DNA from: Myxococcales bacterium
GTDB lineage: Bacteria > Myxococcota_A > Polyangia > Polyangiales > Polyangiaceae
Length of the DNA: 64,000 nt
Assembly: GCA_004193285.1 (NCBI GenBank)
Contig: SECP01000009.1
Location: 62,001 to 126,000, forward strand
Direction: 5' to 3'
The position numbers were made by a program, and so were the translations under genes. Below are positions 16,273 to 35,748 of the stretch, in pieces. The notes beneath the pieces were generated by a model. That model was not told the DNA's origin, did not search any database, and worked only from the letters and a program-made list of their open reading frames with translations. Numbering within the stretch: position 1 is the stretch's first letter; the number at the start of each line of letters is the position of its first letter.

Positions 16273-19200
16273 TCACAGCTCCGCGAGGAGCGCTCGGGCG
16301 GCTTGGTGGTCGGGGTTTTCGGAGAGGGCCTTGGTGGCGAGCACCTTCGCTTTGCGCGCATCGCCGGCTTTTCTGGCCAGATGCGCGAGGTAATAGTTGG
16401 CGTCGGCCTTCATCTCGGTGGTGGCGCCGTCGGTCGAGCCGGGCTCGGGCGCTTTCATGATCGCGATGCCGCGGAACGCGCGCTGCGCGGTTTCGTCCTC
16501 GTCGATTTCCAGCGCTTGAGTGCCGAGCTGCATGGCGAGCCGGCCGTTTTTGGGGTCGAGCTCGAAGGCGCGGGTGAGCGCGACGAGCGCGTCGGACAGA
16601 AACCCGTCTTTCAGGTGGAGGCCCGCGATCTCTTGGAAGACTTGGCCTAGCGCCTTCACGCGGCGGCCCTTGTTGGCTTCCGAAACCGCGGTGAGCAGCG
16701 CGAGCGCGTCCTCGCTGCGCTGCGCTGCCCCGTAAGCGCGAGACAGCAGCACGACCGCGTCCACGTTCTCCGGATCTTGCTCGCGAGCCATCTCCAGGAC
16801 CCGCACCGCGGCCTCGGCCTGGCCTTCCGCCGAAAGCAGCAGCTCGCCCGCGCGCAGCAGGAGGCGCTTTTGCTCCCCCGCGTCCTTGGCGTTTTGTGCG
16901 TCCTCGAGCAGTAGCTCCGACAGCTCGCGCACGGCGCTGATGGCCTGATACACGGCCTGCAAGCGGAGGCGAACGTCCGGCCGGCGGCGGTCCACCGCGA
17001 GCGCCCGCTCGAGGCCGACCCGCGCGTCCTCGGGGCGACCGAGTTGCTCACACGCGTCTGCGAGGCGCAGCGCGTCGCGCACCAGCTCGTCTCCGCCCTC
17101 TACCTCGACCAAGCGCGTGAGCGTCTTCACCGCTTGCTCGGCGTTGCCGGTACGCGAGGACAGCTCGGCCAAACGGCGCAGCGCTTCCACGTCTTCCGGC
17201 ACCTCGCGCACGAGCTCCGAGAGCCGCGCGAGAGCGCCGTGCGCGTCACCGACCGCCTCCAGCAGCTCGACCAGGCGCAGCGTGAGCCGGCGGTCCTCGG
17301 GCGGCTCCGCGCGGGCGATCGCGCGCTCCAGCGCGTCGATCAGATCGGAGGCCAAAGCCGGATCGACGACGTACGCAGCCTCCAGAGCCTGCACCGCCTC
17401 CTCCTCGCGCGACAGCTCGGTGAGGAGCTGGGCCCGCTTACGCAGTAGCTGCGCGTCCGCGGTCTCCGCGCCCATGAACGTCTCGAGCGATTTCAGCGCG
17501 GCCTCCGGCTGATCAGCGGCGCGGTAGGCCTCGACGAGGCGGTCCAGCAGGCGGGCGTCGCCGGCGCGCTCGCGCAAGGACGTGTCCAGCAAGTTGGCGA
17601 CCTTGGCGTAGTTCTCGCGCTCCGTGTAACGCACGATGAGCAGGTCGCGCAGCGAGGAGTCGCGCGGGTTGGCGGCGAAGCTGGACTCCAGCGCGCGCTC
17701 GGCGCCTTCGCGGTCCCCCAGCTCTTCGCGCAGCGTCGCCAAGCGCCGGCCCAGAACGGCCGCCTCGGGGCCCGCCTGCACCTGGAGCAAGCCCTCGATG
17801 CTGTCGGCGATCAGCTGCGGATCGCCCAGCTTCTCTGCGAGCTCCATCGAGGTGCGGAGCAAGTCCTCGTCGCGCGGAGCCCACTGCAGAGCCGAGCGGC
17901 ACACGTCCAGACCCGCGTCGAGCTGGCGCTTGTCGGCCAGCAGCGCGGTCAGCTCCAGCGACAGCCCCACGACGCGCGAGACGTCGTTTTGGTCCTTGGC
18001 GCGGTCCAGCTCGGACCGGAGCAGCGTGACGAGCTCCGCGGCGCGCCCCGTTGCGACGAGCAGCTCCCGCAAACGCGCCACCGCGGGCATGCAGCTCGGA
18101 TCGTCGGCGATCACCTCGAACAGGGCCTCGATGGCGGGCTGCTCGTTGCCGGGGGTCTGGAGCAAGAGCTCGGCGCGCTCCAAACGCAGCTGGCTGCGCT
18201 CGGAGGGGTCGTCGACCTCGCCGCCGATCTCGCCGAGGAGCGCGGCAAGCTCCTCCAGCTGCCCCGTCGTCCGCAGCAGATAGAGCAGCGGTTGCCACAG
18301 ATCGCGCGAGCGCGGCGACGCCCGGTGCAGCGAGCGGTACAGGCGCGCGGCGCGCCCTTGCTCACCCTGCAGGGTTGCTGATTCCTGCGCGAGCTCGAGG
18401 GTGGCCGCGTGCTGCTCCTCCGCCGGCAACGTGCCGAGGGCCTGCTCTCGGAGATCGAGGCTTCGCCCGAGCTCGCCCTGCTCCGCGTAGATCTTCGCGA
18501 GGGTGAGCTTGGCGGCCCCGAGCTCGGGCTCGGTGAGCGCCGCCTTCGAGTTCGCCAGCACCGCCTCCAGGCCGCGCTGCGCGAGCGCAGGGTCGAACAG
18601 CTCGCCCGTCGCGCTGAGCAGCTCCCCCAGCTCCGCCCCGCTCGCCCCGGGCTCGGTCAGCTTGGCGACGAGCACCTCGGCCAGGCCCCGCGCGTCACCG
18701 CGCGCTCGCGCCACGCGCTCCTTCACGGCCGCGAGGGCCGTGCGATGCGCATCCGCGGTCTCGCTCTCCACGCCGGCGAGCGCGCGCTGCGCGTCGTCCG
18801 GATCGAGCTTCAAGTCGAGCGCCTTCGTGAGCAGCGCGAGCCCCTCCCCCACCGTCGCCGCGCTCGAAAGCTTGCTGCGCGCGAGCCGGAAGTACAAATC
18901 CGGGTCGGCTGGCGGCGCCGACGTGCCTGCCCGCGAGAGCCGCAGCTCGAGGACGCGCTCTTCCGCGGCCCCCTCGCCCAAGTGATCGTAGATGCGCCCC
19001 AGCGCCGCGAAGGCGACGTCGTCACCGACCTCCGGCCCATCCTCGAGCAGACGCTCGATCACCTGCGCTCGCTCTTTGAACGACGCCTTGCGCTGCTCGA
19101 GACCGCCCAAATGCTCGGCGTGGAGCACGACCAGATCCGAGAGCGCGGTGGCCGCTTCCGCCGGAGTCAGGACCTGCTCCAGGCGCGTGTGCAGCGCCCG

Positions 19201-22200: not shown

Positions 22201-25200
22201 CGGCGACAAATCGCGGGATAGCCGGGCGTCGTACAGCTCGAACAGCTCGGCGTAGCGGCCTTGCGCGTTGAAGGCCAGCTTCAGCCGATCGAAGGCCCAA
22301 TCCGCGGTCGGGCAGAGCGCGAGCACTCGAGAAAGCAGCGCGATGACGCGTTCACCGTCGTCGAACCACTCTTCTTGAAACTCCACGACGCGGCGCCCGA
22401 CCACCTCGGCGACCTCGGGCAAGAGGTCGCGTTCGATGGTGCGCGCGTATGCCTCCGCCACCGGCTCGGGGCGGTTCAGCTTGCGCGCCATCTCCTCCGC
22501 GACGCCCCACAGCTCCTGCTCGCCGGGCGCGGCCTCGGCGCCGCGCAGCGCGAGCTTCAGCGCTTCTTCCGGTTGATCGAGCTTGGTATCCAGGAGCTGC
22601 CGCATCCAACGCGAGCGCGCCTCCGCAAGCTCGGGATCGGCCGCCGCCACCGCCAGCAACGCCTCGATCACATCGGCCCGGGCGTCGGGGTCGTCCGAGC
22701 CTTCCGCCATCCGCTCCAGCAGCATCGCCGCGCGAGCGCGCGTCGCGGCCGCGCCCAGCGCTTGGTGCACGATGCGCAGCGCGTCCGCGTCGCTCGGCTG
22801 CTTGGCGAGCACGCCCTCGGCCAAGTCCAGCGCCTCTGCCGGCTGCTCGAGGGATGCGATGAGCAGTGACGCCAGCTTCAGCTGAATGCCGGGGCGACTG
22901 TCCGCGTCCGCTCGCGGCAATAGCTCACGCAGCGCCGCCGCCGCGCCCTTGGCATCGCCCGCGGCGGCGCGAAGCCGCGACAGCTCGAAGAGAGCATCGG
23001 TGCGCTCCGGGTCCGCGGCCACCACTTGCTCGAGCAGCGCCACCGCGCGCTCCGGCTCTTGGAAGCGTTGTTCCTCGACCTCGGCCCACTTGAGCCACAG
23101 CTCGACCGGGCTCGCGGTGCGCTTCACGCTCTCGCCCATCAGCCATCGGTAGTCCTCGGCGCGCGCGGGCGCGAGCGGCGCGCGCTGCAAGAACTCCGCG
23201 AAGGAGTCGAGCTCGTGAGCGGCCTCGTCCCCCGCCGACTCGACGAGGGCTCGGAACAGCTTCGCGGCCGCGTCCGCTCCGCCCTCCACCGTGGAGAGCG
23301 CTCGCGCCTTGGCGAGGCCGAGGTGCCGCGCCCGGCTCGGGTGCAGGCCGCGAGCGAGCGCCAGATCTACGAGCTCGACGTAGCGCACAGCGGCGCCGTT
23401 CGCCTCTGCTTGGACCTCCAAGCTCATGAGCAGGGTGACGAGGTGACGCTCCTCCAGCGTCGGCAAGACGACCTCGAAGGCCTCTTTGACTTGCGCCCAG
23501 TCTCCCGCTTGCGCGGAGAGCTCCACGAGTCGCCCGGCGGCCCGAGCCGAGCCGGGGTCCACGCTGAGCACGCGCTCGTAGAGCCTGCGCGCCCGGTCCA
23601 GCTCCGCCGGCAGCCGCTCGGACAGCTCCGCGCCCTCCAGCCACGCGCGCGCGGCCGCAGCCGAATCCGTGAGCTGCCAGGCAAACGCGCTCCCCAGCCG
23701 CTCCAGCAAGGCCGCGCGGCTCGCCGGGTCCGCGGTGCGGCTCAGTCTTCGCTCGAGCGTCAGCCGCACCGTCGCGCCGTCATGCTGTTCACGAGCGAGA
23801 CGTTCCACCGTCTCCAAGACCTCGTCCGAAAGGTCTGCCACTTGGCACAGCTCGCGGTAGCGGGCGAGCGCCTCGGCCGGGTTGCCGCGCTGCTCGGAGA
23901 GCGCGGCCAGGCGCAGGAGCGTGAGCGTCTTCCGCTCGCCCTGCTCGAGCTCGACCGCTCGCGTCAGCTCCGCCGCGAGCGCCTCCAGGTCCCCCATGCG
24001 CCCGAGCCACTCGACGAGCGCGTCGTGGGCGGCGCGGTCCCGAGGATCTTCCGCGAGCGCGCGCTCGAGGGTCTTCACCGCGGCCGCGGGTACGCCCAGC
24101 TCTCGGCCCTGCAGCGAGGCGAGGGCATGAAACAGCTCGCGCCGACGCGTCACCTCCGCTTCTTGCTCGAGCGCGCTCACGTACAGCGCCAGGCGCTCTT
24201 CGGGCGCCCCTTGCTCGGCGAGCAGGCGATCCACGCGGCTCATCAGCTCGCGCGAGCCCGGATCGAACACCAGGGCGCGCCGGAGTAGCTCCACCGCGCG
24301 CTCCAGGTCACCGGCGGCGGCGTAGGCCTCGCCGGTTGCTTTGGCGAGCTCGAACACGGCCGCGGAGTCCACCGCCGCGTCACCGAGCGCGGCGTTCAGC
24401 ACCGCCGCCCGGTGCGGCGCGCTGCCCTGATCACCGACGCCGAGAGCGAGCGAGAGCCACTCGCTCAAGTCGTCCCGCCGCTCACGCAGCGCAAGGCCGA
24501 GCCCGGCGCCGGCCAGCTCTAGCGCGCGCTCCGGATCCTCGAGCGCGCTGGCCGAAAGGAGGCTCGCTTCCCGCAAAAATCCGAGCTTTTGCTCGGTATG
24601 GGGCGAAAGCTCCGCGCGCACCTCCAGCACGCGCAGGAGCGCCTCCGAGGGCGGCTCCGCGCGCAGCACCGGCTCCAAGATCTCCGCCGACAGCTCGCGC
24701 GTGTCCGGCAGCGTGAGCAGCTTCTCGACCGCGCTCCTCGCGCCGCGGTGCCCCGGCTCCAGCGCGAGCACTTCTTGGTAGGCGCGCAGCGCCCCCTCGG
24801 GATCGCCGAGGCGAGCCATCTTCAGCTCCGCCAGCTCCATCCACAATGACAGCTTCTGCTCCGGCTCCGCCCACTGGATTTGTTGCTCGACGAGGTCGCA
24901 AACTTCGAAGAAGCGCTTGGCCTCGATCAAGAGCGGCATCAAGCGGCGATGAATCTGCGGGCTCGCCCCGTAGTGCTCGATGAGCTTCTCCCAGAGCTCG
25001 ATCGCGCCCTCGCGGTTGCGCCCCTTTTCGGTCGCCAGCTCCGCCGCCGCGAAGCCCAGGGCGCGCGCTTCCTCGGGATCTTTGGTGCGCTCGGCCCGGT
25101 GATAGAGCACCTCCGCGAGGCCGTCCTCGTCGGCGGCGGCTTGGTACAGCGCCTCGAGCCGGCGAAGCGCCTCGTCCGTCCACGGCGAGCCGATCAGCGC

Positions 25201-26715
25201 GCGCCACGCAACGATGGAGCGTTCCGGATCTTTGCCGTCCCCATCGCTCAAGCGAGCCAAGCGGCGCGCGGCCGCCTGCCGCGTCTCGCGCTCGGGCTCG
25301 AGCTCCACCACGAGCGTGAGCGCGGCCAGCAGCTGCTTCAGCTCGGAGGACTCCGTGCACAGCTCGCACAGCTCACGAGCGGCCACGAGCGTCGCCGGCC
25401 CCCGCTCAGTCGAATCCACGACTTGTTGGAAGGCTGCCTTGGCGCGCTTCACGTCGCCACTCTTCAGGTACACGACTCCCACGTCCGCACCCACGCGCGC
25501 GCGCACGGAGCTGTCTTTGCTGGCCAGCAGCGCCCGCGACAGCAGCCGCGCGGCTTGCTCAGGCTGACTCAAGCCGAGGCTCAGGGTGACGAATCGTTGC
25601 CTTAGGTCGTCATCGCCAGGGTTACCCGCCACGACGGGGGCTAAAAGCTCCAGCGCTCCGGTGTGATCGGAGAGCACGTCTTGACGCAAGATCCCCAGTC
25701 GGCGCTGCACCTCCACCCGACGGGGCCCGCGCACCGTCTTGAGCTCGAAGCTCAGCATGGCGATGGCGCGGTCCGTGCGGCCTGCGCGCTCGTAGGCGTC
25801 CGAAAGGGCGGCCGCGACGCGCGCGGCGTGGGCGCGACTTTCCAGTAGCCCTTCCGCCGCCGCCAGCGCGGTCGGGTGGCTCGGAACGAGCTGCAGCACC
25901 CCTTCGATATGGCCCAGCCCGCGCGTTACGTCCTTGAGCGAGCCCAGGCACAGGTCGACGAGCTGCTCGCGTAAGAGCAGCTCGTCGGGCGGCGGGGCGG
26001 GCTCACGGCGCAGCGCCTGCTCGAACACGTCCGCCACCTCTTTGTGCCGCCCGCGGGAGAGGAGCCGTCGCACGAGGCCCTCGCGCGCGCTCTCGTCGCC
26101 CGGGGCGACCTTGAGGATGCGCTGCCCCACGTCGATGGCTTGCTCATCGCTTTGAGGGAGCTCGCGCAGGAGCTCCGCGGCGCGCCGCAAAAGCTGCAAC
26201 TTGACATCGGCTTCCTGAGCGCGCGAGCTCGCGTCCGCGTAAAGCTCCGCGAGCCGCGCCGGCTTGCTCGCGATCGCATAGAGCCGTTCCAGGAAGGCAA
26301 AAGCCTCTGCGTGGCCTGGCACCGCTGCCGCCGCGCGCTCCGCGTAGCCGATGGCGCCGTCCGTGTCCCCGAGCTCACCTTGAAAGAACTGCGCAGCGCT
26401 CAAGTAGATGAACACTTGCTGGTCGCCCGTGAGCAGCTTGATGCGCTTGTCGGAAGCAGCTTGCTCGTACGCCATCGCCAGGTCCGAGACCTTGGCGTGA
26501 CGCACTGCCGCGCGGTGCAGCTTCTCCCAGGCTTCGTAGGGCGCTTCGCCTTTGGCCAAGGCGCTTACCAAAAGCTCTAGGACAGCGCTGGGATCATCGA
26601 GCCGTTCGTCGAGGCCCTCCGCGATCTCCGACAGCTTGAGCGCCAGCATGCTGGCACGGCGCTTGGCTTCGGTCTTCGGCGCGGGGACTTCGGACTTCGG
26701 AGGTACTGTGGTCAT
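16273..26715 (-). CDS. Giant TPR-repeat protein (3480 residues)
   Basis: This very long cytoplasmic-looking protein consists almost wholly of TPR-like helical pairs, with no signal peptide, membrane segment or catalytic domain that I can see. Repeats with the TPR pattern (W/L-x2-L-G/A-x2-Y-x8-A-x3-Y/F-x2-A/V-x4-P) recur throughout: DTDGAIGYAERAAAAVPGHA near the N-terminus, GDPEGALRAYQEVLALEPGH, GDLERAVELLRRALVFDPGS, and ATKALSENPDHQAARALLAEL at the C-terminus. The ATG at 26715 (reads MTTVPPKSEVPAPK) is preferred over an in-frame start at 26781, which adds only a non-conserved leader. Such proteins usually serve as scaffolds. The small Cys-rich gene follows after 15 bp. A role cannot be assigned. 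Confidence 0.88.
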   Translation of the reverse strand: MTTVPPKSEVPAPKTEAKRRASMLALKLSEIAEGLDERLDDPSAVLELLVSALAKGEAPYEAWEKLHRAAVRHAKVSDLAMAYEQAASDKRIKLLTGDQQVFIYLSAAQFFQGELGDTDGAIGYAERAAAAVPGHAEAFAFLERLYAIASKPARLAELYADASSRAQEADVKLQLLRRAAELLRELPQSDEQAIDVGQRILKVAPGDESAREGLVRRLLSRGRHKEVADVFEQALRREPAPPPDELLLREQLVDLCLGSLKDVTRGLGHIEGVLQLVPSHPTALAAAEGLLESRAHAARVAAALSDAYERAGRTDRAIAMLSFELKTVRGPRRVEVQRRLGILRQDVLSDHTGALELLAPVVAGNPGDDDLRQRFVTLSLGLSQPEQAARLLSRALLASKDSSVRARVGADVGVVYLKSGDVKRAKAAFQQVVDSTERGPATLVAARELCELCTESSELKQLLAALTLVVELEPERETRQAAARRLARLSDGDGKDPERSIVAWRALIGSPWTDEALRRLEALYQAAADEDGLAEVLYHRAERTKDPEEARALGFAAAELATEKGRNREGAIELWEKLIEHYGASPQIHRRLMPLLIEAKRFFEVCDLVEQQIQWAEPEQKLSLWMELAELKMARLGDPEGALRAYQEVLALEPGHRGARSAVEKLLTLPDTRELSAEILEPVLRAEPPSEALLRVLEVRAELSPHTEQKLGFLREASLLSASALEDPERALELAGAGLGLALRERRDDLSEWLSLALGVGDQGSAPHRAAVLNAALGDAAVDSAAVFELAKATGEAYAAAGDLERAVELLRRALVFDPGSRELMSRVDRLLAEQGAPEERLALYVSALEQEAEVTRRRELFHALASLQGRELGVPAAAVKTLERALAEDPRDRAAHDALVEWLGRMGDLEALAAELTRAVELEQGERKTLTLLRLAALSEQRGNPAEALARYRELCQVADLSDEVLETVERLAREQHDGATVRLTLERRLSRTADPASRAALLERLGSAFAWQLTDSAAAARAWLEGAELSERLPAELDRARRLYERVLSVDPGSARAAGRLVELSAQAGDWAQVKEAFEVVLPTLEERHLVTLLMSLEVQAEANGAAVRYVELVDLALARGLHPSRARHLGLAKARALSTVEGGADAAAKLFRALVESAGDEAAHELDSFAEFLQRAPLAPARAEDYRWLMGESVKRTASPVELWLKWAEVEEQRFQEPERAVALLEQVVAADPERTDALFELSRLRAAAGDAKGAAAALRELLPRADADSRPGIQLKLASLLIASLEQPAEALDLAEGVLAKQPSDADALRIVHQALGAAATRARAAMLLERMAEGSDDPDARADVIEALLAVAAADPELAEARSRWMRQLLDTKLDQPEEALKLALRGAEAAPGEQELWGVAEEMARKLNRPEPVAEAYARTIERDLLPEVAEVVGRRVVEFQEEWFDDGERVIALLSRVLALCPTADWAFDRLKLAFNAQGRYAELFELYDARLSRDLSPMERVELLREAAMAARDFAGNADRAIEYFERLNRDNPGDQRVEASLERLYERNGKKRPLIELLSLRLRGPGAKPAEQNELLGRVAALWLDLNEPREALVLAAKLLAAPSGEKDGVSLLERIVALPGSGSAEVEGAPSVRVAAARLLCRYYREQESTLDVVRMLELEAGGSAPLERVPLLDEAVELRLEQLADPSGAFETLSTIVALIPDDAERRSRLAKLATQLSALPRRAEVLRQIAEGDVSEATRGSLLLEAGETYQQGLGDRVAAAELYRGVLALEDAERGDALAAARALAGILREQGSADELASVLERLAELAPAAPERRMALGEAADVALTRLDDPTRAIVNLEARLRLGADDFEAVDALCRALERAERFEELVVALGRRAELSGEDEGSRLDRTRAAQLLWRALGDRRRAIAAFRRVRLLHGRSPELFDALRELLTDEQNFRALADLYDDEVGSEVDLGRARTLYLELGAVHRHHTGELLRALDAFVVARDWERAIEVAGLHPADPALGLAVVERLRELAIAAFRADSAPEALRAADWAVRELSDRRLERGEYETVVSELLDAAKLPFSVSRQRELRRDAACLCSDRLHDNQSAIQIFNELLAEEPGDDVARASVTRLSLLLEEQGLHAEIVALWEAQAEAREQRGDLAGAALLYARAGENAEQRLADLKRAVVDHEAGAKLNGEASLTALARIFRAQGELPRAADALERLLQLDSSELVAERALSLLSVYRELGVAERARPALERAARQAIDAQAVRTALAALYRELADHAALAGLLAEEAQRAPDRRQRIQLLRDAAEIHLTHRDAPAEAAPLLQQAIELDPDDQKLRLRLAQALFFASSYEQAEGVLREQIQRYGARKPKDRAQAHFQLARVLLASHRETDALGELDAASKIDPAHPGIMQVLGRVAMEQGDFERAERMFRSLMLIVGRDDEGAPSKTEALLSLSELSARRGDEARAQELIESAFEASSENGREALALSAALRQRGRFDLLARALHTRLEQVLTPAEAATALSDLVVLHAEHLGGLEQRKASFKERAQVIERLLEDGPEVGDDVAFAALGRIYDHLGEGAAEERVLELRLSRAGTSAPPADPDLYFRLARSKLSSAATVGEGLALLTKALDLKLDPDDAQRALAGVESETADAHRTALAAVKERVARARGDARGLAEVLVAKLTEPGASGAELGELLSATGELFDPALAQRGLEAVLANSKAALTEPELGAAKLTLAKIYAEQGELGRSLDLREQALGTLPAEEQHAATLELAQESATLQGEQGRAARLYRSLHRASPRSRDLWQPLLYLLRTTGQLEELAALLGEIGGEVDDPSERSQLRLERAELLLQTPGNEQPAIEALFEVIADDPSCMPAVARLRELLVATGRAAELVTLLRSELDRAKDQNDVSRVVGLSLELTALLADKRQLDAGLDVCRSALQWAPRDEDLLRTSMELAEKLGDPQLIADSIEGLLQVQAGPEAAVLGRRLATLREELGDREGAERALESSFAANPRDSSLRDLLIVRYTERENYAKVANLLDTSLRERAGDARLLDRLVEAYRAADQPEAALKSLETFMGAETADAQLLRKRAQLLTELSREEEAVQALEAAYVVDPALASDLIDALERAIARAEPPEDRRLTLRLVELLEAVGDAHGALARLSELVREVPEDVEALRRLAELSSRTGNAEQAVKTLTRLVEVEGGDELVRDALRLADACEQLGRPEDARVGLERALAVDRRRPDVRLRLQAVYQAISAVRELSELLLEDAQNAKDAGEQKRLLLRAGELLLSAEGQAEAAVRVLEMAREQDPENVDAVVLLSRAYGAAQRSEDALALLTAVSEANKGRRVKALGQVFQEIAGLHLKDGFLSDALVALTRAFELDPKNGRLAMQLGTQALEIDEDETAQRAFRGIAIMKAPEPGSTDGATTEMKADANYYLAHLARKAGDARKAKVLATKALSENPDHQAARALLAEL

Positions 26716-26874
26716 GCGAAGGCCGGTCGGGAAGCGTAACAGACCTAACCCGCGGCTTGGGAAGCCTCGAAAACACTCCAAAAAATTACAGCCCGGTAGC
26801 TATCGCATCGCACTCGGTCGCCGTCGGTCGCGCTCGAGCTCGCGCTCGCGAGTCGCTGACGCGCCTACATCCGA

Positions 26875-27726
26875 CTACGCTGGCTCGCCGGGCACGGCTC
26901 GAAGAAAGGCCGTCACTTCGGCGGCGACGCGCTCGGGCTCGTCCCACTGAACGAAATGACCAGCTCCCTCGATGTGCTGCACGCGCAAGCGACTGACGTG
27001 CTGCTCGAGGCCGACGAGCAGCCGGGAGTCCAGCGCCGGATCCGCGTCACCCCACAAAACGAGGGTCGGCGACAGGATTGGCTTCGGGCAGCGGGTGGGC
27101 CAGCGAAACGCCGCGCGGTAATAGCTGAGCGCGGCCGTGACCGCCCCCGGCCTCAGGAGCTCACGCCGAGCCGCCTCCACACGCGCCTCGGTCATGACCT
27201 CTTTATGCGAGACCAGGCGCCGGAGCAGCCATCCAAACACCAGCCGCCGGGTGACGACCCACTCTGCGATCTTACGCAGCTGGAAAAATAGGATGTACCA
27301 GCTCCGCACCAGTTGCAGGCTCGTCCGAAGTGCGCGCGCGTAGCTCTCCGGGTGCGCGGCGTTGATGATGACGAGCTGGGTCACCAGCTCCGGGTGCTCC
27401 GCGGCAAAGCAGTAGGCGTGGGTGCCGCCCCAGTCGTGGCCCAGGACCGCCACCTTGCCGCCGGCCCAGCGCGCCAGCGCCGCCAGATCCGCGACCACCG
27501 CCTCCGAGCGGTACGGCGCGAGCCCCGGCGGCTTGTCGGACATGCCGTAGCCGAGCAAGTCGGGCGCGATTGCTCGGAAGCCGCGAGCGGCGAGCGCCTC
27601 GCAGAGCTCCCGAAAACCCAGCGAGGAGTCGGGGAAGCCGTGCAAGAGCAGCACCGGCGGCCCCGCGCCGATGACCCGCACGTGGAGCATGCCTCCTGGC
27701 GTGCTGACCTTCTCCGAGTCGATCAT
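26875..27726 (-). CDS. Epoxide-hydrolase-like alpha/beta hydrolase
   Basis: This 283-residue enzyme has the hallmarks of the epoxide hydrolase/haloalkane dehalogenase branch. HGFPDSS is at 29-35 (oxyanion HGFP), the nucleophile elbow is GHDWGG with Asp98 instead of Ser, the late acid is near Asp227 (WGDADPAL), and His257 is in GAGHFVQWDEPE. The cap region (about 120-200) is rich in Trp, Arg and Leu. Known members open epoxides to diols through an Asp-ester intermediate. The ATG at 27726 overlaps the stop of the upstream SDR gene (ATGA), so it is the last gene of a translationally coupled five-gene run. Epoxide hydrolysis is likely from the Asp nucleophile, but dehalogenation cannot be excluded. 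Confidence 0.85.
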   Translation of the reverse strand: MIDSEKVSTPGGMLHVRVIGAGPPVLLLHGFPDSSLGFRELCEALAARGFRAIAPDLLGYGMSDKPPGLAPYRSEAVVADLAALARWAGGKVAVLGHDWGGTHAYCFAAEHPELVTQLVIINAAHPESYARALRTSLQLVRSWYILFFQLRKIAEWVVTRRLVFGWLLRRLVSHKEVMTEARVEAARRELLRPGAVTAALSYYRAAFRWPTRCPKPILSPTLVLWGDADPALDSRLLVGLEQHVSRLRVQHIEGAGHFVQWDEPERVAAEVTAFLRAVPGEPA

Positions 27727-28553
27727 GGCGTTCGGTACGTGCGCTGCGCGGCGCGGAGCAGCCAAGGCAGTGCCGAAGGAGCTAGGCGTTTCATCGCGTA
27801 GAGGAGCCACGCCTCGGTGGAGACTGGCACCAAGGCTCTACCACTTTCGGCGGCGTTGACGATGGCCTTCGCGACCGATTCGGGGGCGAGCCCGCGCCGG
27901 TCGTAGAGCGCCTGCAAGGCCCGGCGCCTCGCGGCCTCGTCCTCAGCGCCGCGAATCCGAGCGGCTTGCAGAATGGAGGTGCGCACCAGGCTAGGGCACA
28001 CCACGCTCACCATCACCCCGGACGGCAGCAGCTCGGCCCTGAGCGCCTCCGAAAGACCTACCAGCGCGTACTTGGTAGTTCCGTAGGCGGTGAGGCTCGG
28101 CAGGTTGCAGAAACCAGATGCGGAAGCGACGTTCACGATGCGTCCTTCGCCGCGGGCCTGAAGCAGCGGCCCGAACGCGCGCGCTGCATGGATGGCGCCC
28201 CACAGGTTGACTCGGAGCAGCCACTCCCAGTCTTCGTCCGTGGTATCGAAGAACCCTCCCGCGACCCCCACGCCGGCGTTGCTGACCAAGCAGTAACAAG
28301 GCCCAAGGTCTCGCTCCACCTGCTGCGCGAAGCCGCGCACCGCGGCCGCGTCGCCCACGTCCACTCCCGCGCCGAGGGTGCGTGCGCCGAGCGCCCGGCA
28401 GTCAGCCAGAGTCTGCTCCAACGCGACCAGGTCGGTGTCGCAACCGGCCACATGCGCGCCGCGAGTCGCCAGCTCCCGCGCGGTGGCCCGCCCAATGCCC
28501 TTCCCTGCCCCCGTCACCACCGCAACCCTCCCGCGAAGGTCCGCTCGGGGCAC
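27723..28553 (-). CDS. SDR family NAD(P)-dependent oxidoreductase
   Basis: This 276-residue classical short-chain dehydrogenase has the cofactor motif TGAGKGIG at 14-21, SNAG at 91-94 (in place of NNAG), Ser near 144 (NVASASG), Tyr157 and Lys161 (YGTTK). The C-terminal tail is extended and hydrophobic (LLYAMKRLAPSALPWLLRAA), as in SDRs that act on lipids. The GTG at 28553 lies 1 bp after the DyP stop codon and places the Rossmann fold at the start; the upstream open frame is antiphase to the peroxidase gene. Its stop overlaps the start of the epoxide-hydrolase-like gene. It probably oxidises or reduces a hydroxy/keto group in the same pathway. Confidence 0.88.
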   Translation of the reverse strand: MPRADLRGRVAVVTGAGKGIGRATARELATRGAHVAGCDTDLVALEQTLADCRALGARTLGAGVDVGDAAAVRGFAQQVERDLGPCYCLVSNAGVGVAGGFFDTTDEDWEWLLRVNLWGAIHAARAFGPLLQARGEGRIVNVASASGFCNLPSLTAYGTTKYALVGLSEALRAELLPSGVMVSVVCPSLVRTSILQAARIRGAEDEAARRRALQALYDRRGLAPESVAKAIVNAAESGRALVPVSTEAWLLYAMKRLAPSALPWLLRAAQRTYRTP

Positions 28554-28554
28554 G

Positions 28555-29961
28555 TCAGTCGGTCCCTTCGCAGAGGTAGTTGAGCGCGCGCATCCCCGGA
28601 AGAAAGAAGTACTCTCCCCCGCGAACGTGCACCACCTTGGGCACGTTCGGGTAACGCTGTCGCACCGGCCGCGCCTGCACCGTGAACGGGCGCGGGACGA
28701 GCTGGTCATCCTCGTCTACCGCGTCTTTACCGACGATCGGGTCGCGCTCGTCCGAGAGCCCCGCGAATTTGCAGCTATTGAGCCAAGTTTGCTGCACGAA
28801 CTCGAATTGGCGGCGCAGGTCCGCGTTCAGAGCGAGGAAGTACAGCCCTCGCTTCGCTCCGTCGTCTCGCTGCGGCATGTCTCCCAGCAGCCGGGGGCCG
28901 TAGGCGCGGCCTCTTCGAACCAAACGGTGCAGGTTGGCGTCGCGCAGACCTTCCTTCGCCGTCTCCCCGAACATGTCACGAGGGTTGGCGCGCCGAATGT
29001 GCGCGCCGAAGGGACAGCGCAAGCCGTCCGGGTCGCGCTCGCGAAACCCGAACTCGTCTAGACCTGCGCGCGGGGGGCGCTCTGCGTCGGGCGATTCCAC
29101 GAGCGGCACCCCGTTCGGCCAGCGCCCGAACATGCGCGAGGCGATGAGCTTGGCGCGCGCGGCGAGGTCCAGCGCCCCTTCGGCTCGCGCCGCTTCCCAG
29201 CAGTAGTGCCAAAACCCTGCCACGTCTTGCTGGAGCTTGCGCAGCACCAAGTACGTGCCGTTGTGACCGAGGCGCACGCGCTCCATGCTGCTCGAGGTGA
29301 AATCCGGGTGCTCCCGCGTCCCGCGGCGGCGCTTGGCGCTGGGGACCTCGTTCACTTTGCCATAGGCGTTCTCGTAGCCGAGCACGAGCTCACCGGTGGC
29401 GATTTTGGCTTCTCCGGGCCGGCGCTTTCGCCCGCTGCCCCGGATGAAAGGTTGGGCAAGGCCGTCCGTGAAGCCGAAGTGCTCTCGGCCTCCTTCCGCC
29501 AGCGCCACGTCCTCCGCTCGAGCCGCGATACCGAATTTTTCGAAGGACCGTTCGAGCTCCACGGAGCGGGCATCCAGCTCTCCATCGCTCCCGGCGTAGA
29601 GCATCGCCACCGCGTCCACCGGCGCCGCTTCGTTGCCCCACTCCCAGCTCTCCGGCGAGTCCGAATAACGATCACCCAGCACGTGGGACCGCTCGGGGTG
29701 GGTCATACCTTGCACGAATTCGCGCTGAAAGGTGCGCAGATCCTCGTTGTCCAAACCGAGGCCAGCGAGGCCTCGCGCAGAGAAAGCGACGTTGAAGCGG
29801 TACTGCCCGCCTTGGTCTTCGTCCCCGGAGGTGACGTCCGTGAGGACTCGACGCAGCCACTCGCGCGGCTGGGCGCCGTCGAAGCGCAGCAAGAAGAAGC
29901 GCGACCGCGGATGCTGCCGGTACGCGAAGAGCATCAAACCCTGGACGTCAGCTCGTTCCAC
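28555..29961 (-). CDS. DyP-type heme peroxidase
   Basis: This 468-residue dye-decolorising-type peroxidase has the GxxDG distal motif (GFTDG, 163-167, catalytic Asp166) and the proximal heme ligand His321 in HIRRANPR, preceded by CPFGA. No Tat signal is present, so it should be cytoplasmic, unlike EfeB-type DyPs. The start is a GTG at 29961 with GAGGAAG just upstream, overlapping the stop of the preceding gene. DyP enzymes use hydrogen peroxide or organic peroxides to oxidise bulky substrates. Here it is tightly coupled with an SDR and an epoxide-hydrolase-like enzyme, which suggests a lipid or aromatic peroxide pathway; the substrate is not readable. Confidence 0.93.
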   Translation of the reverse strand: MERADVQGLMLFAYRQHPRSRFFLLRFDGAQPREWLRRVLTDVTSGDEDQGGQYRFNVAFSARGLAGLGLDNEDLRTFQREFVQGMTHPERSHVLGDRYSDSPESWEWGNEAAPVDAVAMLYAGSDGELDARSVELERSFEKFGIAARAEDVALAEGGREHFGFTDGLAQPFIRGSGRKRRPGEAKIATGELVLGYENAYGKVNEVPSAKRRRGTREHPDFTSSSMERVRLGHNGTYLVLRKLQQDVAGFWHYCWEAARAEGALDLAARAKLIASRMFGRWPNGVPLVESPDAERPPRAGLDEFGFRERDPDGLRCPFGAHIRRANPRDMFGETAKEGLRDANLHRLVRRGRAYGPRLLGDMPQRDDGAKRGLYFLALNADLRRQFEFVQQTWLNSCKFAGLSDERDPIVGKDAVDEDDQLVPRPFTVQARPVRQRYPNVPKVVHVRGGEYFFLPGMRALNYLCEGTD

Positions 29962-29970
29962 GGTGCTTCC

Positions 29971-31236
29971 TCATAGCAGCTGCAGCAACCTTTCCGCCGT
30001 CGGCGCCGAGAGCTCGGCCCCCAAGAGCTCGCGGATCTCGGCGTTCTTCAGCACCTCTCCCACGGAGAGGCCGGGGTAGGCGCTGTACCAAACCTGCGTC
30101 GGCACCTGGTGCGCGCGAGTCCAAGCTTTGAAGGCGGCTTCGTCCTTCGCGCCTTGCAGCAGCAACCAGCGCGTCTTTGGGTACCAAACGGTGTGAGTCC
30201 AGATCATCGTGAGCCCGACCGCGGCCTTGTCGATGAACTCGCCCAGGTACGCCTCCCAGCTGCCGTCGTAGTTGCTGAAGAAGAGCAGGCGCCCGTCCGG
30301 CATCGCCACCCAGCGCGCAAAGTGGATGGTTTGAATGCCGCCCAAGCGCCCGGTGAGCGCGCCGGCGTCCGCGAGCGCGGTCACGAGGTAAACCATGACT
30401 CGCAGCGCGAAGGCTCGATACCATCCGGGTTTGATCGCGACCAGATGAGTGAGCCCGTTCTGATCGACGCGGTCTTCCTCGCGCCCGATGAGATCGCGCT
30501 GGGCCCGCAGCGCGGGAGTGTCCCAGCGCGGTTGACGCTTGCGGATCCACTCGTCGCGCAGCTCGAACAGCGGCGCTAGCAGGAACGCCGCGAGCACGCT
30601 GAGCGGTCGCGACAGCGCGCGCGCCCAGACGCTGGGCGGACGGAGATCCAGCCCACGCTCCACGTGACCCAGCGTGAGCCCGTCCTGCGCGGCGCGGGAC
30701 CTCGCCACGCGCTGAAGGTCACGCGCGAGCTCCAGCGAACCGGTCGATTGCACCCGGGAGCCGCGTGAGAGCTCGCCAAGGCGCGCTTCCACCGCGCGCC
30801 GCAGCGCGGCGTCGCCACGAATCACCGGCACCGACAAGCCGCCATGAGCCACGTAGTAGGCCGCGGTGCGTAGCGACGACGCGCGAAAGAAGCCGACCAG
30901 AACCTGCAGATCGTCGCTGCCCGGGTAGCCCCGCACGTGCCGAAATGCGTCGTCCAGCATCGGGCCCAGGCAGGTGCGAAGCTCGGCGACGTGGTCGCTC
31001 AGCTCTCCGTCGAAGTTGCTCTCGAAGGCGAGCTGATGCCCGTCGCCGAGCAACTGACCGTCTTCGCCCAGCGAAGGCGGAAGCACGACCCACCGCGCGA
31101 AGTGCGTCGTCGCGGACGTCTTGAGGGCGCGCTGCAGCTCGCGCTTGGCGTCGCGGAGCCACGCGTCCACCGCGAGCTCCTTGCCCGGGGCAATGGGAGC
31201 GACCACGGTCAGGGCCCGGTGGCGAACCGGGCTCAA
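29971..31236 (-). CDS. Unrecognised protein with an internal duplication, between kinase and DyP genes
   Basis: I do not recognise this 421-residue protein. It contains two related modules: the first has THFARWVVLPP then FESNFDGELSDHVAEL; the second has IHFARWVAMPDG then FFSNYDGSWEAYLGEF. Each seems to be an alpha+beta unit (strand, helix, HFARWV strand, SN-F/Y-DG turn, helix). Between them are amphipathic and hydrophobic helices (LSVLAAFLLAPLFEL, AFALRVMVYLVTAL). The start is TTG at 31236, inside a TTGA overlap with the kinase stop, and is supported by GAGGAG seven bases upstream. A longer open frame to 31446 is antiphase to the kinase gene. The DyP gene starts 9 bp downstream, so a linked role is likely. 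Confidence 0.75.
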   Translation of the reverse strand: MSPVRHRALTVVAPIAPGKELAVDAWLRDAKRELQRALKTSATTHFARWVVLPPSLGEDGQLLGDGHQLAFESNFDGELSDHVAELRTCLGPMLDDAFRHVRGYPGSDDLQVLVGFFRASSLRTAAYYVAHGGLSVPVIRGDAALRRAVEARLGELSRGSRVQSTGSLELARDLQRVARSRAAQDGLTLGHVERGLDLRPPSVWARALSRPLSVLAAFLLAPLFELRDEWIRKRQPRWDTPALRAQRDLIGREEDRVDQNGLTHLVAIKPGWYRAFALRVMVYLVTALADAGALTGRLGGIQTIHFARWVAMPDGRLLFFSNYDGSWEAYLGEFIDKAAVGLTMIWTHTVWYPKTRWLLLQGAKDEAAFKAWTRAHQVPTQVWYSAYPGLSVGEVLKNAEIRELLGAELSAPTAERLLQLL

Positions 31237-34200
31237 GCGAGCGCTCCTCGAAAGCCGGGGGCGCTCATGTCCAAGCAATGCTCGACATTGACGATGCCCT
31301 GCTTGTGCAGCTGCTCGGTGCTCGCGTAAAGCTGCTCGCGTCCGGTTTCGCCCCCCGCGAGCGCGCCTCGACGCGCCTTGGCGCAGCTCGCCAGGTACCC
31401 CATGTCCACGCGAGTAAGGCCCAAAACGGCCTGCTCCAGGTGCCAAAGGGCGCGCTCGTCCTCACCCTTGCAGGCCAGCAGGCACCCCATGACGTGGTGG
31501 CCCATCGGGGCCGCGTAGTCCGGGCGGTCGGCAAGGAGGTCTTTGGCGCAGCGCTCGGCCAAGCGCAGCAAGAGTCGCTCGTCGCCGCCGTCCTCCACCG
31601 CGGCGATGGCGCACAGCCCTCGCTCGAAAATCGTGCATACCCGCATCATGTGCACGCGTAAGAAGTGACCGGCTTTGATGCGCGCGAAGTCCACCTCCAT
31701 CTCGGTGTGGGCGGCGCGGCCACGGCCGCGATAGCGGTGAGCCGAGACCCGAGACACCAGGCTCCCCCAATGCCCGCCCGTGAAGCGCTCCGAGAGCTCG
31801 CCGCCCCACTTCGGCACCTCGCGAGCGATGTGCTCGGCCGCGTCCGGGTCGTCCGCGACGATGGCGGTAATGGCAGCCGGATAGATCATGTGCATGAGGG
31901 CGAAATGGTCGGCGCGCTCTTCCGCTTCGCGCATTACCTCCGGCACCCGGCGCGCCGCTTCCTTCAGCTCGCCGCACAGGATGAGCGCGTTCGTCGACCA
32001 AGCGACGGCGTTTGCCAGCTCCCAGTGCACGCCGTGGCAGCGCTCGCGGATGATCTGCTCGGCCGCGTCCAGCGTTGCTTGCGCGGCGCGCCATTCGCCC
32101 GAAAACACGCGCACGAGGCCGGCCGCGAGCCGCGCCAGCGCGATCGCGTGCGGGTCGTTGCTGCGCGTAGCCAGGCTCTCCGCCGTTCGTACCAGGCTCT
32201 CGATGCTGGCGCGTCCGCGCACCTCCGCGGCTGCCCGCCCCGAAGCCTCCATCGCGAGGGCGCGGCAAATGCGAATCGGCTCGCCGCAATCCAGCGCGAG
32301 CAGTAAGTGACGAGCCCCGAAGTCGGCCGCTCGTACGACGTCGAACAGCGCGAGGCCGGAGCTGGCCGCGAACGCGACGTCGATGCGCTCCAGCTCGCCG
32401 CGCGCCGCTTCCGCACGCTGATCGAAGCGCATCCCGCGCACCATCAGCCGGGCGCGGTTGCCGAGCAGCGAGACGACCGCGGAGGCCGTCGTCTCCGGGT
32501 AGCCGAGCTTCACGTCCGCGAGCGCCTCACGCAGGATACGCACCCCCTCTGCTTCTCCACCGCTCTTGAGGTAGTGCTCCGCGGCGAGCCGCCGCAGGCC
32601 GGTGCGCTCGACGGCCGGCGCGTGCGGAACCGCGCTGGCGAAGGCGGCGGCCGCGTCCTTCGCGTGGCCGGCGGCGAGGAGCATCTGCCCCACGCTGCGC
32701 GTCAGCTCCCAACGAGCGCGATCCGCGCCCAGCTCTGCGGCGCGACGGTACAGGCCCGCGGCGCGAACGAACGCGAGCCCGCGCTCGGCCGCTTCCGCCG
32801 CACGGAGCACGTGAGCGCGCGCGCGCGCCGTGTCACCGGCGGCCAAGAAATGCTCGACGAGCACCCCCGCGTCGGCCCCCGGCTCGCGCTCCAGCACGTG
32901 CGCGAGCTGGCCATGGAGTGCGCGCCTCTGCGCGTCGTCCAGACCACCGAGGAGGCTGTCGCGAATTCGCCCGTGGTAAATGTCCAAGAGCTCGCGCTCG
33001 CCGCTCTCGACCGTTCGCGTCAGCTTCTCGACTCGCAAGCGCGCCCGCAGCGCGTCCGCCTCGCTCACCCCCGCCGCGCCCTCCGCGACCCGCACCGGCA
33101 AGGGGCCGCCAGCCACGCACAAGACCTCGAGCAGGGCGCGCCCTTCCGGCGGCAGCTCGCTCACGCGGCCGCGAATCACCGCATCGAGCGAGATGAGCCC
33201 GCTCGCCTCATCGCTGGAGGCGGTGCGGTGCCACGCCGAGAGCTCCGACACGAAGAGCGGCAGGCCCTGCGACTCCTCCGCGATACGACGAACGACCTCG
33301 CCGGAGGCCTCCTCGCGATCGCCGAGGGACAGCGCAGCAAGCTTGGCGCAGTCTTCGTAACCCAAGCGTGACAGCTCGAGCTGCTCCACGCGCGTTCGGC
33401 CGGCGATGCGCGTCGTGAGCTCGAGCAGCTCGTCGAGGGCCGGGCTCTTACCCACCGCCTCGGACCGAAAGCTGCCGACGAGGAGGAGAGCGGGCGAGCC
33501 CGGCGCGTGCAGCAGCTGCTCCAGCAGCGCCACGCTGTCCACGTCGGTCCACTGCAGGTCGTCGATGTGGACGATCAGCGGCCGATCGTCGGCGATGGCC
33601 CCGAGCAGCGAGCGCAGCGCCATGAACGCACGGCGCCGCAGCTCCTGTGGGTCTCCGGCCTCGGGCCGCCCTTCCGCGCGGCGCTCCAGCGCGGGCACGG
33701 AGCGCAGCACGGGGAAGACACGCAAGAGCTCCGCGGCGTGCATCGGCAACAGGCCGCCCAGCTCCTGCTGCGGCATGAGGGAGAGCCAGCGGCTGAGCTC
33801 GTCCACCACGCTGTCCAGCCCCTTGAATGGCACCGCCTCACGTTCGTAGCAGCGCCCGGAGAGGACGAGTGTGCGCGGGGTTTGCCCCACCTCCTTGAGG
33901 AAGCGCTGAATCAACGTCGTCTTGCCGATACCGGACGCGCCGGAGACCAACGTCACCACCGCTTCGCCGCGCATCGCGCGACGGAGCCCTTGGCGGAGCG
34001 ACGAGAGCTCCGCGTCGCGGCCCACGAAGGCGCGCAGCGAGCCCGTCGTCGTCGAGGGCCGGAGCGAGCTGTGCGACCTGCGCGTGCCGGGCCGCGCCGC
34101 GCGCAGCCGGTCCAGAACCTCCGCTCCTTCCGGCCTGGCGTCGGGCGCGGGCGATAGCAGGTCGAGGCAGAGCGCGGCCAGATCCGCGGGCACACCTTGC

Positions 34201-35060
34201 ACGATCTCCTGCGGCGGCCGCGGCTTGCCGTGCTGCTTGGCGTACAGCACGTCCTCGGGTGGGCCGTCGAACGGCAGTTGGCCCGTGAGCGCCTCGTAGA
34301 GCATCACGCCCATGGCGTAGAAGTCGGCGGAGGGGCCCACCTGGGAGGCGCGCGCTTGCTCGGGCGCCATGTAGGCGGGGGTCCCGAGCACCAAGTCGTC
34401 CAGGCGCTCGCTGCCCTTGCCGAGCTCGCCCACGACGCCGAAATCCAGCAGCACCACGCGCCCCTCCGGCGTCACCATCACGTTGGACGGCTTGATGTCG
34501 CGATGCAGCCGCCCCGAAGCGTGGATCGCGAGCACGCCGTCCAGCAGCCCTAGCAGCGCCGCGCGCAGGCGCGCTTCGTCCCCCACCGGCTCGCCCGTGC
34601 TCGGAATCGCGAGCAGGCCGCTCGCGTCCAGCTCCGAAAGCGCGAAGGCTTCGATCGTCGGCGCGCTCGAGGCCAGCGGTCGAAGCGCCGAGTTCGTCTC
34701 CGTCATGGTGACCTGCGGCCCGGAGGCGCGCGCCGCTCCCCGCACGTGACTCACGAAATCAGAGCCCTCGAGGAGCTCCATCGTGAAGAACCACTGGTCA
34801 CCCTCCGCGAACAGCTCGTAAAGCTGGACGACGCCGGGGTGAGCGATGTCCGCCAGCGCCCGGAACTCTTTTTTGAAGCGCAAAAGCGCGGCGGGGTCCA
34901 GCCGCGTCATCGTTTTGAGAGCAACCGAGGACGAGCGACGCAGGTCGCGCGCGCGATACACCACCCCCATGCCGCCTTCGCCCAGGACGTTCTCGATGAC
35001 GAAGCGGTCGTTGCCTTTGAACTCGCGCAACGCAACTTTCGTAGCCAAAATCGCCCCCAA
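31233..35060 (-). CDS. Ser/Thr protein kinase fused to an AAA-type ATPase and helical TPR-like region
   Basis: This 1275-residue signalling protein has an N-terminal Hanks-type kinase: Gly-rich GEGGMGVV (28-35), VALK with Lys49, HRDIKPSN (about 186-193), DFG near 206, GTPAYMAPEQ. A roughly 60-residue insertion lies between the hinge (MELLEG) and the following helix. After a Ser/Thr-rich linker comes an NTPase with Walker A GASGIGKT (about 374-381), Walker B LIVHIDDLQWTD and a winged-helix part. The last 500 residues are helical repeats. The architecture matches PknK-like or AAA-ATPase sensor kinases. It is the first gene of a coupled run (kinase, duplicated-domain protein, DyP, SDR, epoxide hydrolase) and probably controls a regulator or enzyme there. 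Confidence 0.93.
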   Translation of the reverse strand: MGAILATKVALREFKGNDRFVIENVLGEGGMGVVYRARDLRRSSSVALKTMTRLDPAALLRFKKEFRALADIAHPGVVQLYELFAEGDQWFFTMELLEGSDFVSHVRGAARASGPQVTMTETNSALRPLASSAPTIEAFALSELDASGLLAIPSTGEPVGDEARLRAALLGLLDGVLAIHASGRLHRDIKPSNVMVTPEGRVVLLDFGVVGELGKGSERLDDLVLGTPAYMAPEQARASQVGPSADFYAMGVMLYEALTGQLPFDGPPEDVLYAKQHGKPRPPQEIVQGVPADLAALCLDLLSPAPDARPEGAEVLDRLRAARPGTRRSHSSLRPSTTTGSLRAFVGRDAELSSLRQGLRRAMRGEAVVTLVSGASGIGKTTLIQRFLKEVGQTPRTLVLSGRCYEREAVPFKGLDSVVDELSRWLSLMPQQELGGLLPMHAAELLRVFPVLRSVPALERRAEGRPEAGDPQELRRRAFMALRSLLGAIADDRPLIVHIDDLQWTDVDSVALLEQLLHAPGSPALLLVGSFRSEAVGKSPALDELLELTTRIAGRTRVEQLELSRLGYEDCAKLAALSLGDREEASGEVVRRIAEESQGLPLFVSELSAWHRTASSDEASGLISLDAVIRGRVSELPPEGRALLEVLCVAGGPLPVRVAEGAAGVSEADALRARLRVEKLTRTVESGERELLDIYHGRIRDSLLGGLDDAQRRALHGQLAHVLEREPGADAGVLVEHFLAAGDTARARAHVLRAAEAAERGLAFVRAAGLYRRAAELGADRARWELTRSVGQMLLAAGHAKDAAAAFASAVPHAPAVERTGLRRLAAEHYLKSGGEAEGVRILREALADVKLGYPETTASAVVSLLGNRARLMVRGMRFDQRAEAARGELERIDVAFAASSGLALFDVVRAADFGARHLLLALDCGEPIRICRALAMEASGRAAAEVRGRASIESLVRTAESLATRSNDPHAIALARLAAGLVRVFSGEWRAAQATLDAAEQIIRERCHGVHWELANAVAWSTNALILCGELKEAARRVPEVMREAEERADHFALMHMIYPAAITAIVADDPDAAEHIAREVPKWGGELSERFTGGHWGSLVSRVSAHRYRGRGRAAHTEMEVDFARIKAGHFLRVHMMRVCTIFERGLCAIAAVEDGGDERLLLRLAERCAKDLLADRPDYAAPMGHHVMGCLLACKGEDERALWHLEQAVLGLTRVDMGYLASCAKARRGALAGGETGREQLYASTEQLHKQGIVNVEHCLDMSAPGFRGALA

Positions 35061-35133: not shown

Positions 35134-35748
35134 GTGGCAGAACACCAGGCAGGTCGGGGGGGCCGCGCGCGCACGGCTCTCGAGCTACACGCCCGCTATT
35201 TCGACCCGGATCAGGACGAGGCGATCACCCCGAAACAATCACTAGTCGGGATGACGAATTTGGGGGTGCCCTGGCTGCTCGCGGCTCCGCTTGCGCTGAT
35301 CATCCACGCCTTTCTCGGCTACCTCACGCGCCGCCGGGCCACCCTGAGCATTTCCGTGCCGGAGATCGCGCGGGGTAAGCACCCGTTCGAGTCAGGCATC
35401 TTCGGTCCGGGGGGCGCCCTGGACGAAGCCGCCTTCGAGGCGCTCTTCGCCGGGCCGCAGACGCGAGCTCCGCGCGACCGCGTGACCTACGGCGAGTTTC
35501 GCCGGCTGCTCCTCAAAAACGGAGACCCGAACAAGCCTTTCGGCCCTCTGGGCTCGCTGGCCGCGCGGGCGCTCTCGGCGGCCGAGGTTTACACGCTGTT
35601 CTGTCTGGCCTCGGACTGCAAAAAGGAGCTCGAGGGCGTCTCTCAGCGCGCCATGAGCCGCAAGAATTTGCGGCGTTTTTACGAAGGGCGCCTCTTCCGC
35701 GTGCTCGCGCGCAGGCGACGAGTCTTGAGGTCGCGCGGCGCGCGCTGA
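35134..35748 (+). CDS. Bacterial caleosin-family protein (putative heme peroxygenase)
   Basis: This 204-residue protein matches the layout of plant caleosins/peroxygenases. A His directly before the EF-hand lies at His19 (ELHARYFD). An EF-hand-like loop DPDQDEAITPKQ spans 24-35 (Asp at positions 1, 3, 5, Ile at 8, but Glu for Gly at 6 and Gln for Glu at 12). A hydrophobic segment runs from about 46 to 64, then a second His at His83 (IARGKHPFES), aligned with the family's KHGSDS. The C-terminal NLRRFYEGRLF corresponds to the family's C-terminal helix. Both histidines are the proposed heme ligands of caleosin peroxygenases. The plant proline knot is missing. The GTG at 35134 is the most sensible start; the frame is also open upstream over the antisense kinase gene. 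Confidence 0.75.
   Translation: MAEHQAGRGGRARTALELHARYFDPDQDEAITPKQSLVGMTNLGVPWLLAAPLALIIHAFLGYLTRRRATLSISVPEIARGKHPFESGIFGPGGALDEAAFEALFAGPQTRAPRDRVTYGEFRRLLLKNGDPNKPFGPLGSLAARALSAAEVYTLFCLASDCKKELEGVSQRAMSRKNLRRFYEGRLFRVLARRRRVLRSRGAR

Follow-up and report, generated by a model that had tools for sequence, protein, structure and literature searches.

In plants and fungi, caleosins are described as peroxygenases (PF05042, EC 1.11.2.3) that hold heme with two invariant histidines (PMC6309107, PMC6123484), numbered His70 and His138 in AtCLO1 (PMC4057654). According to the available text of PMC6123484, the activity of the plant enzymes requires calcium, the plant pathway runs from the peroxygenase to an epoxide hydrolase, and the proline knot has the motif PXXXPSPXXP. 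A Soret band at 407 nm has been reported for PdPXG2. Caleosin peroxygenases and unspecific peroxygenases (UPOs) are given as separate classes, EC 1.11.2.3 and EC 1.11.2.1 respectively, in the accessible part of PMC12524458. Bacterial caleosins as such are not new: caleosin-like proteins with an EF-hand and both histidines were published in 2018 for Sorangium cellulosum, and the accessible part of that paper (PMC5957377) gives seven sequences from this species and none in close relatives. An earlier, sequence-only reading of this DNA, which called bacterial members little described, thus did not come upon a new kind; what stands is the full-length homologue described here. As far as searches of the open-licence PMC literature went, the new elements are a separate clade, its linkage to a gene cassette and a fold match to UPOs; these searches found no paper with both a caleosin and a dye-decolorizing peroxidase (DyP).

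The caleosin homologue and its divergent clade

The window, by which we mean the whole 64,000-nucleotide stretch of DNA analysed, encodes a homologue of these proteins (Table 1). Pfam Caleosin (PF05042.19) matches it with an E-value of 6.9e-21 and 75.4 bits (cut-off 27), aligning residues 13-191 with positions 3-169 of the 170-position profile. The caleosin homology over nearly the full length that the sequence-only reading claimed, and proposed to check with HMMER, is thereby borne out. The protein is like plant and fungal caleosins in this full-length match, in its EF-loop region and central hydrophobic segment, and in its C-terminal box, FYEGRLF, which resembles their DGSLFE; it is unlike them in its degenerate EF-hand, in the absence of the proline knot PXXXPSPXXP (by eye) and in its setting in a bacterial gene cassette. 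Both histidines named by the earlier reading are present, 64 residues apart compared with 68 in AtCLO1 by the numbering of PMC4057654, and the partial decay of the EF-hand, the missing proline knot, the membrane-like segment and the C-terminal box are all as that reading described them. Residues 43-61 are possibly membrane- or lipid-associating, judging by their hydrophobicity. No match was found in NCBIfam up to E 1, to the Pfam EF-hand models, or at significance in the PDB by phmmer (best E 0.44); PDB sequence searching gave no solved caleosin, the best 60 of 273 matches being EF-hand proteins. Given the glutamine at loop position 12 and the lack of a Pfam EF-hand match, we file the window protein as a superfamily homologue and not as a canonical caleosin.

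Table 1. Features of the caleosin locus, with positions in the window
Feature	Position	Strand	Remarks
Caleosin homologue	35134..35748	+	GTG start, 204 aa; PF05042 match, tree, dN/dS
His19 codon	35188..35190	+	First histidine; AtCLO1 His70 counterpart by motif; invariant in 18/18 rows
Degenerate EF-hand loop DPDQDEAITPKQ	35203..35238	+	Glu at 6, Gln at 12
Hydrophobic segment, residues 43-61	35260..35316	+	Kyte-Doolittle mean 2.02; model helix 47-66
His83 codon	35380..35382	+	Second histidine; AtCLO1 His138 counterpart by motif; invariant in 18/18 rows
Glu151 codon	35584..35586	+	Invariant in 18/18 rows; paired by hhalign with MroUPO Glu157
KIN (Ser/Thr kinase, AAA ATPase, long C-terminal region; 1275 aa)	31233..35060	-	Pkinase 2e-38, AAA_16 9.3e-24
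FARW protein	29971..31230	-	Inside ORF 29971-31446, start uncertain; two duplicated alpha+beta halves
DyP-type heme peroxidase	28555..29961	-	TIGR01413, 8re3 profile match, motifs
Short-chain dehydrogenase (SDR)	27723..28709	-	adh_short 5.2e-48
Epoxide-hydrolase-like alpha/beta hydrolase	26875..27810	-	Best PDB match 5ng7; about 7 kb from caleosin

Purifying selection acts on the open reading frame, which is a genuine gene. It is not a chance frame, because the orthologue in G006, a genome of the same genus, is 82% identical from residue 1 and has the same neighbours in the same order, dN/dS between the two is 0.149 (DyP 0.102, FARW 0.113), and GC by codon position (0.698/0.522/0.810) looks like that of coding sequence and resembles that of the neighbouring genes. 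The caleosin gene and a YgiQ gene converge, their 3' ends sharing 70 bases (window 35679-35748), and the arrangement in G006 is similar.

PF05042 matches 17/108 Polyangiaceae genomes, and a class-wide search with a bacterial-caleosin profile found 18/317, namely the same 17 and G507. Among 39 relatives three matched, the host being one of them; an even sample of 377 genomes from the phylum yielded two, the host and G329, and 14 control genomes yielded none. Its presence is patchy within genera: genus g1 has it in 2/8 genomes, and four genomes of the Sorangium-like genus g262, which we take to be Sorangium, carry it while G447 has none. Each of these four has a single match, so several strains may have supplied the seven published sequences. 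A tree built from 19 bacterial sequences separates, at 98/99, six rows (the four Sorangium-like genomes, G507 and G329), whose EF loops are canonical by eye, from thirteen rows that include the window; the inner branching order is unsure because several branches are long. The thirteen-member clade comprises 13/108 Polyangiaceae genomes, so that, in contrast to the accessible part of PMC5957377, caleosins occur in seven genera of the family other than Sorangium, the host's among them. The window and S. cellulosum proteins share family membership and both histidines, and come from related bacteria (PMC5957377, accessible part). Differences are marked all the same: the Sorangium-like sequences score 183-190 bits, have a canonical EF loop and show 19-20 of 32 identities to plant motif 2, compared with 9/32 for the window protein (motif as in the available text of PMC5957377).

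Conservation was read from an 18-row alignment that leaves out G507 and in which the L032 row starts one codon ahead of its likely GTG start. All 18 proteins match PF05042, and the Pfam EF-hand models match at most six. Ten columns are invariant (window numbers): L16, H19, F23, D24, G44, L61, H83, G94, E151 and G185. Both histidines are kept throughout the thirteen-member clade, while a canonical EF-hand is missing in 12 of its members. Loop position 12 is Gln in eight, Asp in three, Lys in one and Asn in one, and acidic residues at all of positions 1, 3, 5 and 12 are found only in the fusion protein of G013 described below. Selection thus retained the histidines and one glutamate, and not the calcium loop. 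These loop sequences strengthen the earlier suggestion of a calcium-poor form, which would extend to nearly the whole clade.

Neighbouring genes and the FARW-DyP pair

The larger finding, missed by the sequence-only reading, is the link between the caleosin gene and nearby genes for a DyP, a FARW protein, a kinase and an epoxide hydrolase. KIN is divergent from the caleosin gene, and the order running away from caleosin is KIN, FARW, DyP, SDR and epoxide hydrolase. The true start of the SDR is probably near 28530, since its open reading frame overlaps DyP. The DyP neighbour matches TIGR01413 with an E-value of 2e-25 at 89.8 bits, below the cut-off of 100.5, and PF21105 likewise below cut-off. 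A nine-row profile of the DyPs matches PDB 8re3 with 304.6 bits, its PDB matches being DyPs and like peroxidases. GFxDG and HR..RR motifs are present in 9/9 rows, and the window DyP has the GxxDG motif, the presumed proximal histidine and the profile match expected of the family. It differs from known DyP-type peroxidases, whose family motifs it shares, by its FARW partner and, in one genome, by fusion to a caleosin. The hydrolase is predicted to be an epoxide hydrolase: the query 26875-27738 matches 5ng7, its nearest solved relative, with 170.3 bits over residues 3-279, and the Asp nucleophile motif reads GHDWGG. Haloalkane dehalogenases share the Asp nucleophile. Beyond the hydrolase, a 3502-aa open reading frame on the minus strand (16273-26781) resembles, by eye, a very long TPR-repeat protein.

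Linkage was scored by tblastn of the window neighbour proteins against 17 caleosin neighbourhoods. Caleosin, KIN, DyP and FARW occur together at L025-L028 and L033-L035; caleosin is accompanied by KIN at L031 and L032, which each lie at the end of a contig, and by the hydrolase at L029 and L030, and L036 combines FARW with a DyP-caleosin fusion. No DyP, FARW or hydrolase match was found in the Sorangium-like L021-L024 or in L037, so the Sorangium-like caleosins differ from the window's both in clade and in lacking DyP and FARW alongside. Including the window, the caleosin locus carries KIN in 10/13 clade members (partial kinase-domain matches in L021, L022, L024 and some other loci being left out of the count), DyP plus FARW in 9/13 and the epoxide hydrolase in 4/13, from two genera only. 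The loci without DyP and FARW are L029-L032, of which L030-L032 are cut by contig ends and L029 lies on a 9-kb contig. Gene order and strand vary between genera and the set remains together. An all-against-all comparison of open reading frames in 19 neighbourhoods found four families shared by at least five genera, namely caleosin, DyP, KIN and FARW, with caleosin and DyP in one group because of the fusion protein; no other family spread so widely, save the antisense shadow of KIN.

The DyP-caleosin fusion is found in G013, a single metagenome-assembled genome, and the record JAJDAH010000363.1 (Polyangiaceae bacterium) has the same fused frame. Overlapping codons link the genes in some genomes: the end of KIN and the start of the caleosin gene share an ATGA in three of genus g260, and a GTGA combines the stop of caleosin with the start of the epoxide hydrolase in two of genus g250. 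In G006 the kinase gene is in two pieces in different frames (L028 4890-8551).

FARW, named from its repeated HFARW motif, has no Pfam match up to E 0.01 (up to E 1 for the window row) and none in NCBIfam. Its internal duplication is supported at E 2.2e-19 and its model has a pLDDT of 77.6. A relationship to DyP was considered and rejected: profile comparison was negative (prob 0.2), and Foldseek gave no DyP in the best 50 of 776 matches, all weak, which were led by 9ltx (E 1.2e-3) and included several alpha+beta-barrel or ferredoxin-like proteins. With 280 bits as the lower limit, FARW is present in 13/13 divergent-clade genomes and 5/95 others (Fisher p 4e-13), or 7/7 and 2/41 when collapsed to genera (p 5e-7); the tests ignore phylogeny, the threshold was picked after the list was seen, and 9 of the 13 caleosin loci had supplied the rows of the profile. 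For the four clade genomes outside the profile build the counts are 4/4 and 5/95 (hypergeometric 126/3,764,376, about 3e-5). At E 0.001, FARW is matched in 29/108 family genomes, many matches being partial, and in 25/377 of the phylum sample, with misses possible because candidates per genome were limited to 16 and 4 respectively.

The FARW-DyP pair does not need caleosin. At 20 further FARW loci (L047-L058, L063-L067 and L088-L090; L059-L062 were left out), a DyP match lies within a few kb in 20/20 and a caleosin in none; at three, FARW and DyP share one frame, and three of the DyP matches are weak (61-91 bits). FARW and DyP thus pair independently of caleosin, which is an extra member where present, and make up an unnamed two-gene unit occurring well beyond Polyangiaceae. 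The host itself has a second FARW beside a DyP, away from caleosin, in a 1343-aa open frame (L084, G000:C69:74672-76054).

KIN was sought in 20 hand-chosen genomes, and the results that follow hold among the matches listed. The best match is at the caleosin locus in 9/13 clade genomes; in the host, G000, it scores 2771 bits against 154 for the next best. Off-locus best matches are those of G013 (1069 bits), G403 (871.5) and G404 (887.1), and G432 has a KIN fragment at its caleosin locus, at a contig edge. The best KIN in the five FARW-only genomes scores 435 bits, and the Sorangium-like G445 and G446 have off-locus matches of 724 and 692 bits.

Predicted fold and comparison with unspecific peroxygenases

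AlphaFold2 on the 18-row alignment gave a model with mean pLDDT 85.7 and pTM 0.82. In Foldseek against the PDB, UPOs took the first four places (7o1r, 7o1x, 8iag and 7o2d), Hypoxylon entries ranking first, second and fourth and a Daldinia entry third. The top match has probability 1.00, TM 0.55 and E 0.006, and the four span E 0.0063-0.027, probability 0.99-1.00, TM 0.50-0.56, 203-206 columns and rmsd 4.7-6.1. The rest of the best 50 of 512 matches are mostly calmodulins and calcium indicators, at TM 0.2-0.3. The E-values are marginal, as none of the best 50 falls below E 0.001.

Profile comparison used an eight-row UPO/chloroperoxidase profile (PF01328) that includes a myxobacterial row from G286. 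The divergent clade aligns with it by hhalign at E 0.0018 over 140 columns; none of 150 column-shuffled alignments reaches its score or length (best 22.3 against 28.2), and controls with DyP, FARW or the reversed UPO profile align over 9-28 columns. Before the G286 row was added the comparison reached only E 0.012-0.013, with the clade at 0.013. All 19 caleosins together gave E 0.0013 and 0/150 shuffles, while the six calcium-type caleosins alone gave no signal against the UPO profile (13/150 shuffles reach it). Hhalign pairs His19 with His26 and Glu151 with Glu157 (MroUPO numbers), and His83 falls two columns off His86, near a gap; the G286 row has Gly in place of His26. The PCP-motif cysteine is present in 8/8 UPO rows, and no cysteine precedes His19 in 18/18 caleosin rows (by eye), which leaves no counterpart of Cys17, the axial ligand of UPOs. 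His86 and Glu157 form the acid-base pair of short UPOs. The best fold matches of the model and a collinear profile alignment would link caleosins to the PF01328 enzymes, from which they differ in the axial cysteine. The UPO-fold link suggested by the model is a lead and not proof, the sequence match being too weak to establish homology; if it is true, the EC 1.11.2.1 and 1.11.2.3 classes would share an origin.

The PF01328 protein of G286 (L091, Myxococcota) has the PCP cysteine, EHD and the glutamate and is without the histidine of the NHG motif. It was the only such protein in 306 genomes sampled.

Proposed function and alternatives

On balance we favour, by a modest degree, the reading that the window protein is a membrane- or lipid-surface-associated heme peroxygenase, probably calcium-independent, in a Polyangiaceae cassette with DyP, FARW and a Ser/Thr kinase-ATPase. 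The sequences establish its family, the conserved residues, the linkage, one fusion and the gene overlaps; its heme binding, activity, substrate, location and kinase control we infer. The two histidines would hold and serve heme, and a peroxide (lipid hydroperoxide or H2O2) would be cleaved, its oxygen passing onto an unsaturated lipid. Where an epoxide hydrolase is at the locus, in the host genus and one other, it would hydrolyse the product to a diol; its presence at clade loci in two genera, one with an overlapping frame, fits by analogy the plant pathway of peroxygenase followed by epoxide hydrolase. The SDR may contribute a further oxidation step at the window locus, DyP would use the same class of oxidant with FARW as its possible partner, and KIN may regulate the cassette, as its gene position suggests. 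The host genome has no match to lipoxygenase (PF00305), so H2O2 or lipid peroxides formed in another way could serve as the oxidant; PF00305 matches 17/108 family genomes (16 above cut-off), including 6/17 caleosin genomes, four of them Sorangium-like. Against the peroxygenase reading, the plant activity is reported to need calcium and the clade is without a canonical site, and the fold match has marginal E-values. Against the cassette stand the four clade loci without DyP and FARW, the off-locus best KIN of G013, G403 and G404, the FARW-DyP pairs without caleosin, the patchy presence, a fusion in one genome and a hydrolase at 4/13 loci, about 7 kb off in the window. The partner genes suggest a lipid-oxidising pathway, the divergent clade offers natural variation that separates the role of calcium from that of catalysis, and a small bacterial form without proline knot or canonical calcium site could prove more tractable in the laboratory.

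A bolder version, which we hold tentatively and think rather more apt to fail than to stand, makes caleosins a thiolate-free branch of the UPO/chloroperoxidase fold. Glu151 and His83 would form the distal acid-base pair and His19 would replace the axial cysteine, giving the supposed two heme-ligand histidines two different jobs; the chemistry would outlive the loss of calcium, and the cassette of the Polyangiaceae clade would tie that chemistry to another heme peroxidase, with the kinase in control.

Alternatively, the caleosin could be a non-enzymatic, lipid-anchored adaptor or sensor subunit bringing DyP and the kinase to a membrane or lipid droplet. The DyP-caleosin fusion in G013, the overlap of the caleosin start with the KIN stop in three genomes, the hydrophobic segment and the decayed EF loop all favour such a role. 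We consider it unlikely, as it offers no evident reason for His19, His83 and Glu151 to be invariant in 18/18 rows despite the loss of calcium ligands, 16 of those rows being only 29-42% identical to the window protein. Distinctly less probable is a structural role on myxobacterial storage lipid bodies, like that of caleosins on plant oil bodies: Myxococcus xanthus forms triacylglyceride lipid bodies in development (PMC4048283, accessible part) and segment 43-61 is hydrophobic, but the proline knot is absent and the shared neighbours are oxidative and regulatory genes. The patchy distribution (17/108) and the 7.78% contamination estimate of the host assembly (8.66 Mb, 119 contigs, one caleosin copy) might invite the reading that the gene has nothing to do with its neighbours, being a recent acquisition from a eukaryote or a contaminant of the assembly. 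This is scarcely credible and already largely refuted by shared synteny, given the 195-kb contig, the same gene order in G006, codon-position GC like that of the neighbours and neighbours shared in several genera.

The composition of the gene gives no sign of recent transfer. A scan of IMG/VR with a four-row caleosin alignment confirmed no candidate, and a contig scan with the same alignment returned only two loci, its patterns being narrow. The BFVD matches of the caleosin model include uncharacterised giant-virus proteins from Edafosvirus (E 3.2e-10, TM 0.78), Dasosvirus, Yasminevirus and Harvfovirus, which, on predicted structure, are possible viral caleosins.
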